From Hymenobacter sp. (GTDB lineage Bacteria > Bacteroidota > Bacteroidia > Cytophagales > Hymenobacteraceae): a stretch of 34,945 nt of DNA. Both the position numbers and the translations under genes were made by a program. The notes beneath the pieces are model-generated. The model worked only from the letters and a program-made list of their open reading frames with translations. It made no database searches and had not been told where the DNA came from. The stretch covers positions 1 through 34,945 of the forward strand of contig JANXNW010000065.1 in NCBI GenBank assembly GCA_025353905.1, given 5' to 3'. Positions 23,648-31,903 of the stretch are shown here, in pieces; the stretch's first letter is position 1, and the number at the start of each line of letters is the position of its first letter.

Positions 23648-23947
23648 CTAATTAAGGCTGATTGCGGGGAAGCGCGCCGATGAGCTGTCAAAAATAAATA
23701 GCTCGTCAATTTCCACATCCACGTAAAACTCGAACAAGGGCAGGCGGCCAACGAGCGCCCGGACACTGGCCTCATTTTCGGCGTGAACCGTCATCCAGCC
23801 GCGGCCCCGGTCGGCGCTCACGGCGTAGGTTTCCATGACGTGCTCGGCCAGCAATTGATTGACGAAGGCACGATGGCGCGGGATGCGCGCCACAAACTCC
23901 TCATCAAGCGCGTCGGGCAGGCGTACGGAAACGACGAACGTAGGCAT
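23648..23947 (-). CDS. Small hypothetical protein, possibly ferredoxin-like (YCII/muconolactone isomerase-like)
   Basis: MPTFVVSVRLPDALDEEFVARIPRHRAFVNQLLAEHVMETYAVSADRGRGWMTVHAENEASVRALVGRLPLFEFYVDVEIDELF. Confidence 0.7.
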   Translation of the reverse strand: MPTFVVSVRLPDALDEEFVARIPRHRAFVNQLLAEHVMETYAVSADRGRGWMTVHAENEASVRALVGRLPLFEFYVDVEIDELFIFDSSSARFPAISLN

Positions 23948-23980: not shown

Positions 23981-24472
23981 TTAGGAATGGCCCAGCTCAG
24001 CCACGGCCGGCAATTGCCGGTCGCCGGTGGCGGGCTGTGGCGCGGGCAGCTGAACGGTGCGCGTCTCCCAATCCCGAAACTTCAGCAGCTCCTGCTGAAA
24101 CTTGCCCACGAACCAACTCACCAGGCTCAAATCGTCGAGCCAGCCCAGCACGGGGATGAAATCGGGAATCAGGTCGATGGGCGAAAGCACGTAGAGCAGT
24201 ACGGCCAATCCCGACACGATGGTGCTGGTCGGGATGGCCCGGTAGTCGCCGCTGGCGTAAGCCCGCACGAGGCGCACGAGCGTGAGCGCCGACATGAATA
24301 ATTGCTTGAACTTATGGTCTTTACTGCTAGCATCGGCCAATTTATCAGCCGTTTCGTTGAGTATCGTCAGCACCTTAAAGGGGCGACCCAGCAGGCTCGT
24401 AGCCCGGCTAACGAACATGCTAAAAAGGGCGTTTTTAGAAATTTGCAGACCGCGTTGATACAGCGTAGGCAT
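23981..24472 (-). CDS. YkvA family (DUF1232) membrane protein
   Basis: SGLAVLLYVLSPIDLIPDFIPVLGWLDDLSLVSWFV. Confidence 0.88.
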   Translation of the reverse strand: MPTLYQRGLQISKNALFSMFVSRATSLLGRPFKVLTILNETADKLADASSKDHKFKQLFMSALTLVRLVRAYASGDYRAIPTSTIVSGLAVLLYVLSPIDLIPDFIPVLGWLDDLSLVSWFVGKFQQELLKFRDWETRTVQLPAPQPATGDRQLPAVAELGHS

Positions 24473-24545: not shown

Positions 24546-25736
24546 TTATTTTTCAAACAGTGGCGTGGTTCCGCCCACCCAATCCTTATCCTTGTTGAAG
24601 TCCACCCCAATCATCTCGCCCCGACTCAGGCGGGCCAGTCCAGTAAGCAACTTCGGCTCAGCCTGTCCGTGAGGCCAGATGTAAAGCAGGCGTATCTCGC
24701 ACTTAACCAGTCCAGTAGGCGACAGTACTACCGGCTCGTACTGCACTTTGCGCTGCAACAGGTAATTACTTTTGTCGGAGAGCGCATCCAGGTTAGCGGC
24801 GGTAATGTGCAGCTTCACACCTGCCCCGGCGAACGAGAAAAGTGGCTTCAGCACATAATTCTCCAGGTCGGCGGGGTAATTTTTTAACTCCGATAAAAAA
24901 TAACTCGGTGGCGCATACTGACTTTTGATAAATGGCAGCGTGTATTTACTCACGCGAAAAAACCAATTGGGATGACCTACCCAGGTGACATCCAAGTCAT
25001 CAATCAAGTTAAACTCGGGGTGCAAATCCGGATAGCGTACCAGCTCATCGAAAATAACACGGTTATAAATCCGTTTGATGCGAATTTCGCGACCGTCTTT
25101 TTCGTAGAATAATTCGCGGCCGCGCCGACGCACGTCGGGTAGCGATAGGGCTTGTACGCCCCAGAATTTCTCGGTCAAATAAAAATCAATGCGCGTTTTT
25201 TGCTGCTTCGGAAACAGCTCCAGCAAAATAACGTTTTCCGGGTTTTCACCCGCTAAAATCAGCTGCTTCATTTCGACGTGGTAGGCCACCGCGTCGGGCA
25301 CGTCGAGAAAAGCCGACACCGAATCAGGAATCGGGTAGTGCGCGGAAAACACCTCGGGCAGATACGACTGAAACGCGTACAGCGACGGAAATCCCTGCAT
25401 CTCAATGAGCTGTGGCTCCAGCTCGCCGTGCGCGTCGCGGCATACGGCGAAATCGAACGTCAGAAATTCAGCGTGCGCATCCTCGTTCGGCACCCGCTGC
25501 CCGGCCGGAATAGCCGCCTCGGTGAGCTGCTTAAAATCGGGACGCTGCAACACGTCAATTATGTCGCGGCCCGCCCGAATTAATTTATCCCGCAAACCGG
25601 CTGGCACGAATACCGGCGACTCGGCCACCCGAAAATCAAGCTGCCCCGGAAGCTGCTGGTCCACGTCGGCCAACATTTGCTGGTAGCTTTCGGGGCTGAA
25701 CGCGGCGTTGAACTGCTGACGAGGCGTGAGTATCAT
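24546..25736 (-). CDS. ATP-grasp-like hypothetical protein of the amidoligase cluster
   Basis: FLTFDFAVCRDAHGELEPQLIEMQGFPSLYAFQ...YVLKPLFSFAGAGVKL...CEIRLLYIW; ATP-grasp-like layout. Confidence 0.7.
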   Translation of the reverse strand: MILTPRQQFNAAFSPESYQQMLADVDQQLPGQLDFRVAESPVFVPAGLRDKLIRAGRDIIDVLQRPDFKQLTEAAIPAGQRVPNEDAHAEFLTFDFAVCRDAHGELEPQLIEMQGFPSLYAFQSYLPEVFSAHYPIPDSVSAFLDVPDAVAYHVEMKQLILAGENPENVILLELFPKQQKTRIDFYLTEKFWGVQALSLPDVRRRGRELFYEKDGREIRIKRIYNRVIFDELVRYPDLHPEFNLIDDLDVTWVGHPNWFFRVSKYTLPFIKSQYAPPSYFLSELKNYPADLENYVLKPLFSFAGAGVKLHITAANLDALSDKSNYLLQRKVQYEPVVLSPTGLVKCEIRLLYIWPHGQAEPKLLTGLARLSRGEMIGVDFNKDKDWVGGTTPLFEK

Positions 25737-25753
25737 GAGTCAAATATTACGTC

Positions 25754-25786
25754 AAAAAAAAGGCGCGAACCGGGTCGATTCGCGCC
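25754..25786 (-). terminator. Intrinsic terminator 18 nt upstream of the ATP-grasp-like start codon, inside the cluster
   Basis: minus strand: ggcgcgaa-tcgacccgg-ttcgcgcc-TTTTTTTT. Confidence 0.75.
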
Positions 25787-25812
25787 ATTAAAATTAAAGT
25801 AAGCCGCAGAAT

Positions 25813-26637
25813 TTAGCCAGCGGGTACCAACTCCATAAGCCCGGCTAGCGCCTGTCGCAAAAACGTAGGCACGATAACCGCTTCGGTCGCTTCAATGGTC
25901 GTCGGGTCAGCGAGCAGGCCCACCATCTCATCGTATTTACTCGCGCCGTAGGTAGTAATAACCTGCTGCTTGCGCTCTTCAGTGCGCATATAGCGCAACA
26001 TCCCGTCGCCGTCAGCTTCAGGGTGGAATTGCGTGGCGAGCACTTCGGGCGAAATGCGTAAGGCCATCACGGCGCGAGCCAATGGGATGCGCGGGCGCTT
26101 TTTCTCCAGCACCAGCACTTCTACACCCAGCTCCGTCAGGCGCTCGGCGTGCAAGTTAGTGAGCTGATAGTCACGCGAATCGACGGCATAAAACGGGTCA
26201 GACAGCTCGCCCAGCACGGAGTCGGCCCGCCCGGCCCTGGTGAGGTGCATGGGCAGCACGCCGAAGGAAGTGGACTTGCGGCGGCTCACTTCGCCCAAGC
26301 CCAAATGCAGGGCGACGAGCTGAAACGAGTGACAAATAAGCAGCAGATGTTTTTTGCGGTCGGCCGTTTTGTTGTGCGCCAACAGCGCGTCGATAAACTT
26401 AAAATAACGTGGCTCCCAGGCCGCGCCGGATTCGAGCGGGCTGCCGGGGCCGCCGCTCGAAATATACACGTCGTGGTCCAGGCCCGGCACTTCGTTTCGG
26501 CCGCGCACGTCGAAGCTCATTACGCTAAACGTCAGCTCATTTTCTGCTTCGGCGCGGCTCAATAGTTTGCGGATACAGCGCATTCCTTCGTTGGTCACGC
26601 CATCGTACATATCCAATATGGCAACTTTAATCAACAT
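25813..26637 (-). CDS. Class I glutamine amidotransferase-like protein
   Basis: Nucleophile region LLLICHSFQLVALHLGLGEV and ATQFHPEADGDGM (Cys/His/Glu triad); start chosen at MLIKVAILDMYDG. Confidence 0.88.
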   Translation of the reverse strand: MLIKVAILDMYDGVTNEGMRCIRKLLSRAEAENELTFSVMSFDVRGRNEVPGLDHDVYISSGGPGSPLESGAAWEPRYFKFIDALLAHNKTADRKKHLLLICHSFQLVALHLGLGEVSRRKSTSFGVLPMHLTRAGRADSVLGELSDPFYAVDSRDYQLTNLHAERLTELGVEVLVLEKKRPRIPLARAVMALRISPEVLATQFHPEADGDGMLRYMRTEERKQQVITTYGASKYDEMVGLLADPTTIEATEAVIVPTFLRQALAGLMELVPAG

Positions 26638-26691
26638 AAATTTACGTAAGCTCGGCGATTGAATGAAAAATAATTTGGGCGGAGCAAGCGG

Positions 26692-26699
26692 CAAAAATA
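26692..26699 (-). promoter_or_regulatory. TAnnTTTG box (TATTTTTG) upstream of the amidotransferase gene
   Basis: caaaaata on + strand, 55 nt from the start codon. Confidence 0.4.
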
Positions 26700-26722
26700 C
26701 GTCGAATCCAGCTTTTTGTTGG

Positions 26723-27826
26723 CTACAATCCGTGGGTAGTTTCGCTCATGATGAAGTCCACGACCTTGGTCAGGTCGCCGGTTTGCTGGAATACGGCAAG
26801 CTGTCGGTCGGCTCCGGTACCCATTTCCAGCATTTGGAGCACGTATTCGGCCTCGTGGCGGCTACCCAGCTCGTCAAGCACGTCGTCCACGAAATCGAGC
26901 AATTCGAGGATGAGCTGCCGGGCGGGTTTTTCTTCCTGCGAGCCGAAATCAATCAGATTTCCCTCGATACCGTAGCGCGCGGCGCGCCATTTATTTTCCT
27001 TAATAAGCGCACTGCGGTAGAGTCTGAAATTCAGGTTTTGCTTTTTAAGCTTGTAAATTTTCGCTACCAAAGCTTGCATAACGGCGGCCACGGCGATGGT
27101 TTCGTCAGAGCGCATCATCATGTCGCAAATACGGTATTCGATGGTATCGAAAAACGGGTGCAGGCGCAAGTCCCACCATATTTTCTTGCCGTTGTCGATG
27201 CAGCCGGTTTTGATGAGCAACGCGATATACTCATCGTATTCCGACGCGCTGTTGAAATAACCCGGGATACCGGTGCGCGGAAACCGTTCGAACACTTTAG
27301 TCCTGAACGACTTATAACCCGTTTCACGCCCTTCCCAAAACGGCGAGTTGGTGCTCAGCGCAAACAAATGCGGCAGAAAATACCGGAGCGCGTTCATCAT
27401 GTACACGCCAATATCACGGTTTTCGATACCCACGTGCACGTGCATCCCAAATACGAGATTCGAGCGGGCGGCCTCCTGCAACTCCTCCACTATTTTGCTG
27501 TAGCGCGGGTCGGGCGTGATGGTCTGGTCCTGCCAGCGCGAAAACGGGTGAGTGCCGGCAGCGGCAATTTTTAGCCCCACACGGTCGGCCAATTCGATTA
27601 CCTGCCGCCGCAAATGCAATACTTCCACCCGCGCCTCGTCAATATTCTGGCAGATGTTGGTGCCGACTTCCACCACCGACTCGTGCATTTCGGCCTTCAC
27701 CTGCTCGTGGAGCGTGATTTTGCCGTCCTCCACGATTTTCGACATGTGTGAGCGCAACTCCCGCGTTTCGGGGTCAATCGTTTGAAACTCCTCCTCGATA
27801 CCGAGGGTAAACGTGGGCGTTGCCAT
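26723..27826 (-). CDS. Carboxylate-amine ligase, GCS2/YbdK family
   Basis: TLGIEEEFQTIDPETRELRSH; GMHVHVGIENRD; DLRLHPFFDTIEYRICDMM. Confidence 0.92.
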   Translation of the reverse strand: MATPTFTLGIEEEFQTIDPETRELRSHMSKIVEDGKITLHEQVKAEMHESVVEVGTNICQNIDEARVEVLHLRRQVIELADRVGLKIAAAGTHPFSRWQDQTITPDPRYSKIVEELQEAARSNLVFGMHVHVGIENRDIGVYMMNALRYFLPHLFALSTNSPFWEGRETGYKSFRTKVFERFPRTGIPGYFNSASEYDEYIALLIKTGCIDNGKKIWWDLRLHPFFDTIEYRICDMMMRSDETIAVAAVMQALVAKIYKLKKQNLNFRLYRSALIKENKWRAARYGIEGNLIDFGSQEEKPARQLILELLDFVDDVLDELGSRHEAEYVLQMLEMGTGADRQLAVFQQTGDLTKVVDFIMSETTHGL

Positions 27827-27836
27827 GTTTTTATTT

Positions 27837-27929
27837 AGCTGTTGGTTTGTAGCTGTTAGCTGATAGCCGGTTTATTATTGAAATCGATAAACTGAAAGTT
27901 ATCAGCCAACAGCCCAAAGCCAATAGCTA
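27837..27929. repeat. Imperfect inverted repeat of AGCTGTTAGCTGATAGC-type words between GCS2 and ATP-grasp genes
   Basis: tagctgttggtttgtagctgttagctgata vs reverse complement tagctattggctttgggctgttggctgataa. Confidence 0.7.
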
Positions 27930-29057
27930 CTTTTTCGGCGTGGCTTTGCGGACTTTCGCGGCTGTATCGGTGGGCTTGTCGGCGCCCTTGTCGGTGGTTT
28001 TTCTAGCGGCGGGGCGGCGCGTTTTCGGGGCAGGCGTGGTGGCCGTGCCGCCGTGCAGCTCGTGGATGGGGCCGCCCATTTGCACGTCGCCCGTGCCGAA
28101 AGCGGCCGTGCCGCGCGCCGAGCGCTGCACATAGGTGCCCCAGGTCAGATTATCCTGGCCGGGGCGCTGCACCTGCGCCCGCTCGATGGCCAGCAGCGCG
28201 GCGTGCTCGACCACCCACTCGAAGTTTTCAGCCCCAACCGAATGAATGTCGGCATCGGGCGCGGGGTTGCCGAAGTCGATGGCGATGGGCACCCCGCCGC
28301 GCACCGCAAACTCCACGGTGTTAAAATCATAGCCCAGACCCTGGCACAGCCGGAGCACGTAGTCCTTGATGGTGGCGAGCAGTTGCTTGCCGGCCTCGCC
28401 CTGGGTTTTCATCGTGGTCTGGTAACGCTCGTGCGGGGCGTTGCGCGGCTCGTAGGGCATGATGAGTACGTGCTTGCCACCGAGGCAGTAGCAGCGGAAA
28501 TAATCGTCAAAATCCACGGCTTCCTGGTAAAGCATGACGAGCTGCCCGGTTTCGTCGTAAGCCCGGAAGGCTTCGTAGGGATTGTCCACCTTGTAGACGC
28601 TCTTCCAGCCGCCGCCGGCGTGGGGCTTCATAAAGGCCGGGAAACCAATGTGTTCGAAGGCTTTGTCCCAGTCGAACATGGCCAGGTTGCGAAACGAGTT
28701 TTCGCTCGTGTCCGTGGGCCGCGCCTTGCTAGGCAGCAGCAGCGTTTTGGGCACCGGCACGCCGAGCTGCACGGCCAGCGCATTGTTGAAAAACTTCTCG
28801 TCGGCGCTCCACCAAAACGGGTTATTAATAACGGCCGTGCCCGTGAGGGCGGCGTTTTTCAAGTAAGCCCGGTAAAAGGGCACATCCTGCGAAATACGGT
28901 CGATAATAACCGCGTAATCCGTGGTCACAGCTTGCTCGACTTGTTCAATTTTGACGAACTCGGCCGTAATGCCGTCCACGTTTTTATGGTTTACGCGGTC
29001 AATGAATGCTTGCGGAAAAGTATTTTCCTGGCCGAAAAGAATGCCGATTTTTTTCAT
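27927..29057 (-). CDS. RimK-like ATP-grasp ligase with Lys/Ala-rich C-terminal tail
   Basis: GFPAFMKPHAGGGWKSVYKV; EFAVRGGVPIAIDFGNPAPDAD; tail KTRRPAARKTTDKGADKPTDTAAKVRKATPKK. Confidence 0.85.
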   Translation of the reverse strand: MKKIGILFGQENTFPQAFIDRVNHKNVDGITAEFVKIEQVEQAVTTDYAVIIDRISQDVPFYRAYLKNAALTGTAVINNPFWWSADEKFFNNALAVQLGVPVPKTLLLPSKARPTDTSENSFRNLAMFDWDKAFEHIGFPAFMKPHAGGGWKSVYKVDNPYEAFRAYDETGQLVMLYQEAVDFDDYFRCYCLGGKHVLIMPYEPRNAPHERYQTTMKTQGEAGKQLLATIKDYVLRLCQGLGYDFNTVEFAVRGGVPIAIDFGNPAPDADIHSVGAENFEWVVEHAALLAIERAQVQRPGQDNLTWGTYVQRSARGTAAFGTGDVQMGGPIHELHGGTATTPAPKTRRPAARKTTDKGADKPTDTAAKVRKATPKK

Positions 29058-29112
29058 ATAGAGTTTGGTTTGGGGAAAATGCCGAAGACGGCAAAATAGA
29101 ACAAGTAAATGG

Positions 29113-29424
29113 TCAGCGTGAAATGGTAATTAAGGTAAAAATCAGGCTCAGCAGAGTCAGTATCAAGCCAATTAAAAAGTTAGCGTAACCAATGTCCTTC
29201 TTCTCATCATCGCCATGCTGACTTGCTCGCCGCCAGCCGAATACCGACAAAACAGTACCTGCTAAGTGGGAAGGAAATAGACTAATCAAAAATAGGTAGA
29301 CGAAGTATTCCGAAACAGAGCAGAGTGGTATAAAAACAAAAGGTATTGCGTAACAAGCCAGCGCCCAGCGATAAAGTCTCGTTACTTTTAGTCGGTAAAC
29401 GAGGTCATCGGGCGTGGTTTTCAT
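29113..29424 (-). CDS. Small multi-pass membrane protein of unknown function
   Basis: 103 aa, about three hydrophobic segments; 3 nt downstream of the esterase stop codon. Confidence 0.75.
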   Translation of the reverse strand: MKTTPDDLVYRLKVTRLYRWALACYAIPFVFIPLCSVSEYFVYLFLISLFPSHLAGTVLSVFGWRRASQHGDDEKKDIGYANFLIGLILTLLSLIFTLITISR

Positions 29425-29427
29425 CTC

Positions 29428-30183
29428 TTAAAATATCGTGCTCACATACTCCGGAAACATCTCGCGCCATACCGGCCAGTCGTGGTCGCCGAAGGGCTTC
29501 ACGTCGAGGCGGTGCGGAATATTCTTGCGCGATAAAATCTCCGACATTTGAAAATTAGAGCCTTTGCAGAAGTCGTGTTCGGCGGTGCCGAGAATAATAT
29601 TCATTTTGTAAAAATATTCGCTCTGAGCGTTGGGGATAAAATCAGGCGGGTTATGGAAATACGCCTGCTCGTCGTAGTGCCCGCTCAGAAACTGCTTGAT
29701 ATCGAACGCGGCTCCCATCGTGAAGAGGTGCGCGACTTGGTCGGGGTGCCTAAATGCAAAATTAAGGGCCTGATAGCCACCGAGCGAGCAGCCGACCACG
29801 CCCACCTTATCCACCTGACACTCTTGTTGCAGGCGCGGCAGCAGCTCCTCGCTCAACATGCGGTCGTAAAGGCCGTGGTTGTGGACGCGCACGGCCGGGT
29901 GCAGATGCTTGGCGTACCAACTCCATTTGTCGCCCGAATCCACGCAAATTAATTTAATAAGTCGGTTTTCGACAAACCAGCGCACGGCCCCGACCAGGTG
30001 AAAATCTTTGGCTTCGTGGTAGCGGCCGTTGGAAGTAGGGAAAATAATAACCGGGTAGCCGTAGTCGCCCACCACGAGCAGCTCCATGTCGAGACCGAGG
30101 TGTTGGGAGTGGAAGCGGCGGTATTCTTCGTGCACGATAAAAAGGCGGCTGGGGAGAGCAGTAAGTACCCGAACCGGCTGCAA
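29428..30183 (-). CDS. Alpha/beta-hydrolase, esterase (PF00756-like) family
   Basis: GYPVIIFPTSNGRYHEAKDF; nucleophile elbow VGVVGCSLGGYQALNFAFRHPD; FGDHDWPVWREMFPEYV. Confidence 0.88.
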   Translation of the reverse strand: MQPVRVLTALPSRLFIVHEEYRRFHSQHLGLDMELLVVGDYGYPVIIFPTSNGRYHEAKDFHLVGAVRWFVENRLIKLICVDSGDKWSWYAKHLHPAVRVHNHGLYDRMLSEELLPRLQQECQVDKVGVVGCSLGGYQALNFAFRHPDQVAHLFTMGAAFDIKQFLSGHYDEQAYFHNPPDFIPNAQSEYFYKMNIILGTAEHDFCKGSNFQMSEILSRKNIPHRLDVKPFGDHDWPVWREMFPEYVSTIF

Positions 30184-30250
30184 ACTAAGCCGGAAAACCC
30201 GAACCGTAAGCCCGCCCGTATCGCGGCGAACCCGTTTCTTTGCGGCCTTT

Positions 30251-31903
30251 ATGAGTTTATTACGCTTTCAATCGCCGCGCGGCAAGACCGTCATCGTCCT
30301 CCGCGATGAGACGTTGCTTTCCATCGCGCTGGGCCGGCTCGTGCGCTTCGACGTGGTGCTGCCGCCTGGCCATGACCCAGCCGCTAATCTGACTACCAGA
30401 CGCGCTTATCCGGTGCTGTATCTGCAAGACGGCCAAGACCTTGACCGGCTGCGGCTGCCCGCCACGCTCAACCGCCTGTACCGGGCCGGGGCGTTGCGGC
30501 CGTTCGTGCTGGTGGCGGTGCGGGCCGCCGACCGCCTGCGCGAGTACGGCGTGGCCGCCCGGCCCGACTACCTGGGGCGCGGCGACCGGGCGGGGCAGTA
30601 CACTGAATTTATGCTCAACGAGTTGCTACCGCTGGCGCAACGCCGTTACGGCGTGAGCAACGACCCGGCCGAGGTAGCCGTGGCGGGCATGTCGCTGGGC
30701 GGCCTGACGGCTTTCGACCTGGCCTGGCACCACCCGGAAGCGTTCGGGCGGGCGGGGGCGTTCAGCGGCTCGTTCTGGTGGCGCGGGCGCGGGCTGAACG
30801 ACGGCTACACCGATGCCGACCGGCTGATGCACAGCCTGGTACGCGCCCGTCCGGTGAACCTGGGCCAGCAGTTCTGGCTGCAAACCGGCACCCTGGACGA
30901 GACCGGCGACCGCAACCACAACGGCATCATCGACGCGATTGAGGATACGCTCGACCTCATCGCGATGCTGAAGCGGCAGGGCCTGCCACCAGCCGCCGTG
31001 CGCTACCTCGAAGTGCCCGGCGGGCATCACCACCCCGATACGTGGGCGGCCGTATTGCCCGATTTTCTGCGCTGGGCTTTCGGCACTGGGCCGCTGGAGC
31101 CGGCCCCGGACGCGGCGCGGCGGCCGTTGCCGGGGCGACAGCGCGGACCGCTGGCCCGGCTGCATCGACCGCAGGGCGCGCGGCGGTGGGTGGCTCAGGC
31201 CACGCTGGCCCATTCGCGCCGGGCGGCTACCTTTACCGCCATGCCGCCTGCCCCTACTCTGACCCGGCCCACGCCCGGCGCGTACCTGCCCTTCTACCAG
31301 ACCTACCTGGACTTGGTGCCCGCCGGCGAGGACCCGCTCACGCTGCTCCAGGCGCAAGCCGCCGAGCTGAGCGCCGCGCTCGCCCCGCTAACGGAGGCTC
31401 AAACGCTGCTGCGCTACGCCCCTGGCAAGTGGACTCCGAAGGAAGTACTGCTGCATTTAATTGATGCTGAGCGCGTTTTCACGTATCGTGCCCTGCGCTT
31501 TGCCCGCGCCGACGCGCAAGACCTGCCCGGCTACGACCAGGATGCGTTCGTGGCTAACAGCGAGGCCAACCACCGCTCGCTGTCCGATTTGCTGACTGAA
31601 TACGCGGCCGTGCGCGCTGCTACCTGCGCTTTTTTTGGCAGCCTGAGCGTCGAGCAGCTCGACCGCGCCGGTCGTGCTAACGGCGGCCCGGCCACCGTCC
31701 GCGCCTGGCTCTACATCATCGTCGGCCATGAGCGCCACCACCTGAACCTGTTCAGCGAGCGCTACTGGCCGTTGCTGACGGGCGCGCTCGCCGCCACCAT
31801 AGCCACCACGACTGAACAGCAAGCCGAACACGAAGCCCAACAGCATGCCGGGCAGCAGACCGAACAGCAAACTCCACAACAAGCCCCAATCGAAGCGCGT
31901 TGA
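30251..31903 (+). CDS. Single ORF: esterase (PF00756-like) domain followed in frame by DinB-like domain (fusion, or two genes lacking an intervening stop; DinB ATG at 31241)
   Basis: AVAGMSLGGLTAFDLAWHHPEAFG elbow; then MPPAPTLTRPTPGAYLPFYQTYL...GKWTPKEVLLHLIDAERVFTYRALRFAR...IIVGHERHHLNLFSERY (DinB His pattern). Confidence 0.65.
   Translation: MSLLRFQSPRGKTVIVLRDETLLSIALGRLVRFDVVLPPGHDPAANLTTRRAYPVLYLQDGQDLDRLRLPATLNRLYRAGALRPFVLVAVRAADRLREYGVAARPDYLGRGDRAGQYTEFMLNELLPLAQRRYGVSNDPAEVAVAGMSLGGLTAFDLAWHHPEAFGRAGAFSGSFWWRGRGLNDGYTDADRLMHSLVRARPVNLGQQFWLQTGTLDETGDRNHNGIIDAIEDTLDLIAMLKRQGLPPAAVRYLEVPGGHHHPDTWAAVLPDFLRWAFGTGPLEPAPDAARRPLPGRQRGPLARLHRPQGARRWVAQATLAHSRRAATFTAMPPAPTLTRPTPGAYLPFYQTYLDLVPAGEDPLTLLQAQAAELSAALAPLTEAQTLLRYAPGKWTPKEVLLHLIDAERVFTYRALRFARADAQDLPGYDQDAFVANSEANHRSLSDLLTEYAAVRAATCAFFGSLSVEQLDRAGRANGGPATVRAWLYIIVGHERHHLNLFSERYWPLLTGALAATIATTTEQQAEHEAQQHAGQQTEQQTPQQAPIEAR

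Follow-up and report, generated by a model that had tools for sequence, protein, structure and literature searches.

A conserved three-ligase cluster in Hymenobacter

What does a bacterium make with three unlike carbon-nitrogen ligases encoded side by side? We address this question for a cluster of six genes in a 34,945-nucleotide stretch of DNA from Hymenobacter sp. (contig JANXNW010000065.1; hereafter the window), in which the positions of the open reading frames (ORFs) were checked against the window sequence. Our results support the view that the three ligases, together with a class-I glutamine amidotransferase (GATase), constitute a conserved and co-inherited functional unit. We consider it probable (roughly 0.6) that the cluster specifies a pathway independent of non-ribosomal peptide synthetases (NRPSs), in which successive ATP-dependent ligations would yield a small pseudopeptide or peptide-amide. 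The six genes are as follows.

24546..25736, minus strand: aG2, a divergent ATP-grasp-type ligase with the predicted fold of eukaryotic glutathione synthetase and glutathionylspermidine synthetase (AlphaFold, Foldseek, conserved residues)
25813..26637, minus strand: GATase or gamma-glutamyl hydrolase-type enzyme of class I (PF00117, Cys/His/Glu triad)
26723..27826, minus strand: GCS2/YbdK-family carboxylate-amine ligase, PRK13515 (PRK13515, PF04107, motif residues, PDB relatives)
27927..29057, minus strand: RimK/Ddl-like ATP-grasp ligase with a Lys/Ala/Pro-rich tail, here RimK for short (fold match, invariant catalytic residues)
29428..30135, minus strand: est1, a PF00756-type serine hydrolase (PF00756, Ser/Asp/His)
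30251..31903, plus strand: est2, a divergently oriented PF00756 esterase with a C-terminal DinB domain (PF00756, PF12867; start inferred)

Co-inheritance of the ligases across Bacteroidota

Presence and absence were profiled in 349 Bacteroidota genomes, where we found RimK in 118, GCS2 in 104 (matches with E < 1e-120, 104 of the 115 listed), aG2 in 103 and GATase in 75. An earlier note on this DNA, made from its sequence, had staked its reading of the block on the co-occurrence of these genes in other genomes, and co-occurrence is clearly what the profiles contain: aG2 and GCS2 are found together in 98 genomes, aG2 alone in five, GCS2 alone in six and neither in 240. Expressed in the same order (both, first only, second only, neither), the counts are 100/18/4/227 for RimK and GCS2, 99/19/4/227 for RimK and aG2, and 74/44/1/230 for RimK and GATase. 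All four associations give Fisher p <= 1e-42 in a test that ignores phylogeny. This concern is lessened by variation among close relatives, since 21 of the 37 genomes from the genus of the window carry RimK together with aG2 and the other 16 carry neither gene, and since four families (f21, f23, f24 and f26) each include genomes with and without the set. Moreover, 28 genomes hold all three ligases, none within 6 kb of another, and lack GATase; co-occurrence is therefore more than mere linkage. The total of genomes that hold the three ligases without GATase is 39, and ammonia supply or amidation by this enzyme therefore cannot be an essential step of the core. The conserved core is thus the RimK-like enzyme, GCS2 and the ligase of glutathione/glutathionylspermidine-synthetase fold, GATase being a common addition.

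Gene order and neighbourhood

Gene order was read in 80 named loci from GTDB genomes and in the genomes from the genus of the window. As the earlier note had proposed to check, the neighbourhood is conserved: the order est1-RimK-GCS2-GATase-aG2 with divergent est2 is kept in no fewer than 19 genera or higher-level groups of Bacteroidota, and its recurrence in Cytophagia, Saprospiria and Flavobacteriia indicates that the arrangement is not due to chance. The full order with divergent est2 occurs in Hymenobacter, Larkinella, Dyadobacter, Arsenicibacter, Telluribacter, Emticicia, Arcicella, Lacihabitans and others. In Algoriphagus and Cryomorpha the row of five genes is present and est2 is not close by, and GCS2 is missing at the locus in several Saprospiraceae. 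In an all-against-all comparison of neighbouring ORFs of at least 60 amino acids, the six cluster families were conserved in most genera, and the rest were antisense shadow ORFs and an ArgD-like class-III aminotransferase, which lies downstream of aG2 at 21 loci in 8 genera or groups (locus L141, 15269-16495, and 20 others). No NRPS was found with the cluster, in agreement with the earlier note, which had seen neither an NRPS nor a precursor peptide nearby. The PADLOC defence models matched none of the six cluster proteins. A plasmid search with RimK and aG2 as queries gave no match; plasmid matches to GCS2 had about 42% identity or less, and the two that we examined were not in such clusters.

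All ORFs that the earlier note named lie where it placed them, and some gene boundaries were adjusted by comparison with relatives. Judged in this way, the likely start of GATase is 26637 (the ORF runs on to a TTG at 26694), that of est1 is 30135 (the ORF runs on to a TTG at 30183) and that of est2 is at about 30251 (the ORF opens at 30086). A gene for a protein with three transmembrane segments (29113-29424), which had been counted in the block, matches nothing at the loci of the relatives that we examined; it occurs in the window only and was rejected as a component. We also rejected as members a DUF1232 gene (23981-24472) and a small ORF at 23648, which are neighbours in Hymenobacter only.

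The three ligases, the amidotransferase and the esterases

The most divergent ligase is aG2. No Pfam or NCBIfam model matched it, its best PDB sequence match is YgiC (E 0.2), and it does not belong at the sequence level to the glutathione or glutathionylspermidine synthetase family. A structure model built by AlphaFold from an alignment of 22 relatives (predicted local distance difference test, pLDDT, 91; predicted template modelling score, pTM, 0.91) is nevertheless recognisable in fold. Its PDB neighbours in Foldseek are 3n6x, human and yeast glutathione synthetase (GSS), YjfC and Cp1B (E 2e-14 to 1e-9). The best of these is 3n6x, a putative glutathionylspermidine synthase (E 2e-14), and matches to the glutathione and glutathionylspermidine synthetases range from 2e-14 to 1e-12 with TM scores of 0.59-0.64. 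On the strength of this model, aG2 is a true ATP-grasp-type enzyme of the glutathione-synthetase subtype, which bears out the ATP-grasp assignment guessed at in the earlier note and adds the subtype. Residues conserved in the 22 relatives are E112-x-Q114, K264, K297 and the G-loop SFAGAG, with E112, K264 and K297 invariant; we read E112-x-Q114 as the probable counterpart of the E-x-N of related enzymes. The G-loop of YgiC (KPIFSREGANV) aligns with KPLFSFAGAGV in aG2, such that the Glu of the REG motif, which binds metal in characterised relatives, is replaced by Ala303. The active site of aG2 therefore departs in part from the standard arrangement.

The protein encoded at 27927-29057 scores 34 bits against TIGR00768, for which the cut-off is 143.4, and is thus a weak, sub-threshold sequence match to the RimK family. 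The core of its model (pLDDT 70, with a disordered tail) matches Ddl, ArgX, RimK and PsnB (Foldseek E 5e-13, probability 1.0), and the protein is RimK/Ddl-like in fold only. The alignment of relatives shows K144, the G-loop GGGWK, E249, D261 and N264 to be invariant, which covers the catalytic Lys and the metal ligands at three positions. The Lys/Ala/Pro-rich tail (window 27927-28112) is variable: most Hymenobacter relatives have it, and the aligned sequences from other genera have a short one or none.

GCS2 belongs to the NCBIfam equivalog family PRK13515 (543 bits over residues 2-366, cut-off 371) and scores 231 bits against PF04107; its PDB relatives are 1r8g and 1tt4. The signature residues, an EEE motif together with H129 and H131, are invariant in 19 sequences. 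GATase is a class-I enzyme (PF00117, 30.3 bits, cut-off 22.8) with a Cys (ICHSFQ), His and Glu (QFHPE) triad that is invariant in 25 sequences. Both esterases match PF00756. The Ser (GCSxGG), Asp and His of est1 are invariant in 22 relatives, whereas est2 combines a PF00756 domain (97 bits) with a DinB domain (PF12867, 79.5 bits). This fusion to a thiol-transferase-like domain is kept in other Hymenobacter; est2 is an esterase alone in other genera, and it keeps its divergent position across the loci of relatives. Judged from their invariant catalytic residues, GATase, GCS2 and est1 look active. Relatives of est1 (30% identity) adjoin an ATP-grasp_4 gene on plasmids of Pararhizobium and Peptoclostridium (L200, 4840-6768; L201, 4791-6756), and an ATP-grasp ligase gene beside a member of this esterase family is therefore also a recurrent feature beyond Bacteroidota.

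Variant arrangements

The loci fall into three types. In type I the genes are linked and GATase is present. Type II comprises the 39 genomes with three ligases, mostly scattered, in which GATase is absent. An Amidohydro_3-type gene directly precedes aG2 in 11 genomes of type II, and in one family an aromatic/histidine ammonia-lyase gene follows RimK in 8 genomes (for example L214, 7726-9231); both adjacencies may be family-specific synteny. In type III, RimK and GATase are present and aG2 is absent. All six regions of this type that we read (for example L207, 5643-9031) have a circularly permuted ATP-grasp (CP_ATP-grasp) gene of family PF14403 between RimK and GATase, and three of the six have an additional (third) esterase next. 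By sequence, the PF14403 protein is homologous to 3n6x (E 1e-9), and we infer that in type III one glutathionylspermidine-synthetase-fold ligase was swapped for another at the same step. Direct sequence homology between aG2 and the type III protein was not supported (hhalign probability 1.6%, from shallow profiles), the two being linked only via their shared relative 3n6x. Finally, the operon is split in five genomes into the pairs RimK-GCS2 and GATase-aG2, which suggests two sub-steps.

What the cluster may make

Our preferred reading builds on what was observed here, namely the families of the enzymes, the conservation of their catalytic residues, the order of the genes and their joint inheritance. 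Among characterised fold relatives, YgiC and YjfC ligate peptides to spermidine, and Cp1B couples an epoxy-diacid with an amino acid to give a pseudodipeptide (PMC12568646). Linked ligases of unlike type often work successively on one small peptide (PMC4431377). Because the fold relatives use small molecules and linked unlike ligases often act in this way, stepwise synthesis of a pseudopeptide or amide is the reading that we favour. In such a pathway, GCS2 would form a bond between an amine and a carboxylate, which going by other members of the family would be the gamma-carboxyl of glutamate. The RimK-like enzyme would then attach a second residue, and aG2 would attach a C-terminal amino acid or an amine, for instance a polyamine. 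Where a lineage possesses GATase, this enzyme could trim or exchange a gamma-glutamyl or amide group, or supply ammonia, and est1 and est2 might deblock, release or recycle the product. The earlier note had proposed a block for a small non-ribosomal peptide or modified amino-acid compound; this idea is retained here, with a co-inherited three-ligase unit and neither NRPS nor precursor peptide, and without the membrane protein that had formed part of it.

Several points weigh against stepwise synthesis of one product, in addition to the disregard of phylogeny in the association tests. Scattered ligases could serve separate pathways tied to a shared lifestyle. The absence of the G-loop Glu means that activity of aG2 is not assured. 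We infer, moreover, the substrates, the order of the steps and the product.

Alternative functions were also weighed. Putrescine degradation by the gamma-glutamyl ligase PuuA and the class-I GATase-fold hydrolase PuuD offers a model for amine utilisation or detoxification, in which GCS2 would gamma-glutamylate an amine and GATase would hydrolyse the processed product. The invariant GATase triad and the ArgD-like aminotransferase downstream fit this scheme, but two further ligases are tightly co-inherited, many genomes keep the ligases and dispense with GATase, and no conserved oxidase or dehydrogenase was found in the neighbourhoods compared; we regard such a role as improbable. There is a similarly small chance that the RimK-like enzyme and its partners append residues to a protein, in the way that RimK modifies S6 or that has been suggested for the Anbu operon. 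The RimK fold speaks for this, as does the type III CP_ATP-grasp, which is of a kind that features in tagging proposals. However, the conserved neighbours are only the cluster genes and sometimes the aminotransferase; Anbu, proteasome, alpha-E, transglutaminase and tag peptide families are all missing from them, and characterised relatives of GCS2 and of the glutathione-synthetase fold use small molecules.

A third scheme, synthesis of a low-molecular-weight thiol, takes its appeal from a set that contains both GCS2 and a glutathione-synthetase-type fold, and from the DinB domain on Hymenobacter est2: GCS2 would make gamma-Glu-Cys, which aG2 would convert to a finished glutathione analogue. 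BshC (bacillithiol synthase) was found in 18 of 18 cluster-positive and 18 of 18 cluster-negative genomes, and strong GshB-type matches occur in both kinds of genome alike, with no clear anti-correlation. Since BshC is present in all 36 genomes whatever their cluster status, the cluster is no replacement for the general thiol; replacement of bacillithiol was accordingly rejected, and we think thiol synthesis by the cluster unlikely. Least probable by far is a graspetide cluster, that is, one for a ribosomally synthesised and post-translationally modified peptide whose precursor was overlooked. The RimK-like model does resemble PsnB, among many ATP-grasps, but there is little room between the genes (median gap lengths of 14-98 bases), and none of the short ORFs found there is conserved from genus to genus; those that recur widely are only pieces of the downstream region. 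This search argues against a local precursor.

A more ambitious proposal, which we offer tentatively and rate below an even chance, is that an ancient pathway, widespread in Bacteroidota, supplies these bacteria with a general cellular metabolite (cofactor-, osmolyte- or redox-like) in the form of a still undescribed small non-ribosomal peptide or peptide-polyamine conjugate. Nearly 30% of the Bacteroidota genomes in our sample carry the ligase set, and its joint inheritance, seen even in genomes where its members are dispersed, points to a common metabolite that still lacks a name. With three ligases of defined fold and presence/absence pairs within one genus, the system is suited to assays and comparative metabolomics, and the CP_ATP-grasp that replaces one ligase offers an independent way to approach the reaction.

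Comparison with known systems

The E-64 pathway, with the ATP-grasp enzyme Cp1B and the amide synthetase Cp1D, resembles the cluster in its NRPS-independent stepwise amide formation, and Cp1B is among the fold neighbours of aG2; the pathway differs in being fungal, in having an adenylating second enzyme and in containing no GCS2, GATase or RimK-like enzyme (PMC12568646). The Anbu operon includes an ATP-grasp protein (PMC6376114), and the point of likeness is the circularly permuted ATP-grasp family (PF14403) at type III loci; the cluster is without Anbu, alpha-E and transglutaminase. Glutathione synthesis, glutathionylspermidine synthetase (GspS) and E. coli YgiC/YjfC share with the cluster a GCS2-type first ligase and, in GSS, GspS and YjfC, the fold of aG2. 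However, aG2 has only about 10-15% identity to these proteins, lacks sequence-level membership and the G-loop Glu, and is accompanied by a RimK-like ligase, GATase and esterases. The PuuA/PuuD pathway likewise pairs a gamma-glutamyl ligase with a hydrolase of class-I GATase fold, but its ligase is of another family, and the cluster has two more ligases and no oxidase or dehydrogenase.

The closest parallel in outline may be the amidoligase operons that Iyer, Abhiman, Burroughs and Aravind reportedly predicted in 2009 (Mol BioSyst 5:1636, cited in PMC4431377 and PMC6376114), which are said to link ATP-grasp and COOH-NH2 ligases and are thought to make small peptides. The cluster is alike in its linked ATP-grasp and GCS2-type ligases, and differs in having three ligases, one of them of glutathione-synthetase fold, plus GATase and two esterases. 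Our literature search, which did not extend to the operon list of Iyer et al., turned up neither an account of this gene order nor a pathway assigned to it. The kind of cluster is known in outline from the 2009 predictions, while the gene set itself appears to be unassigned.

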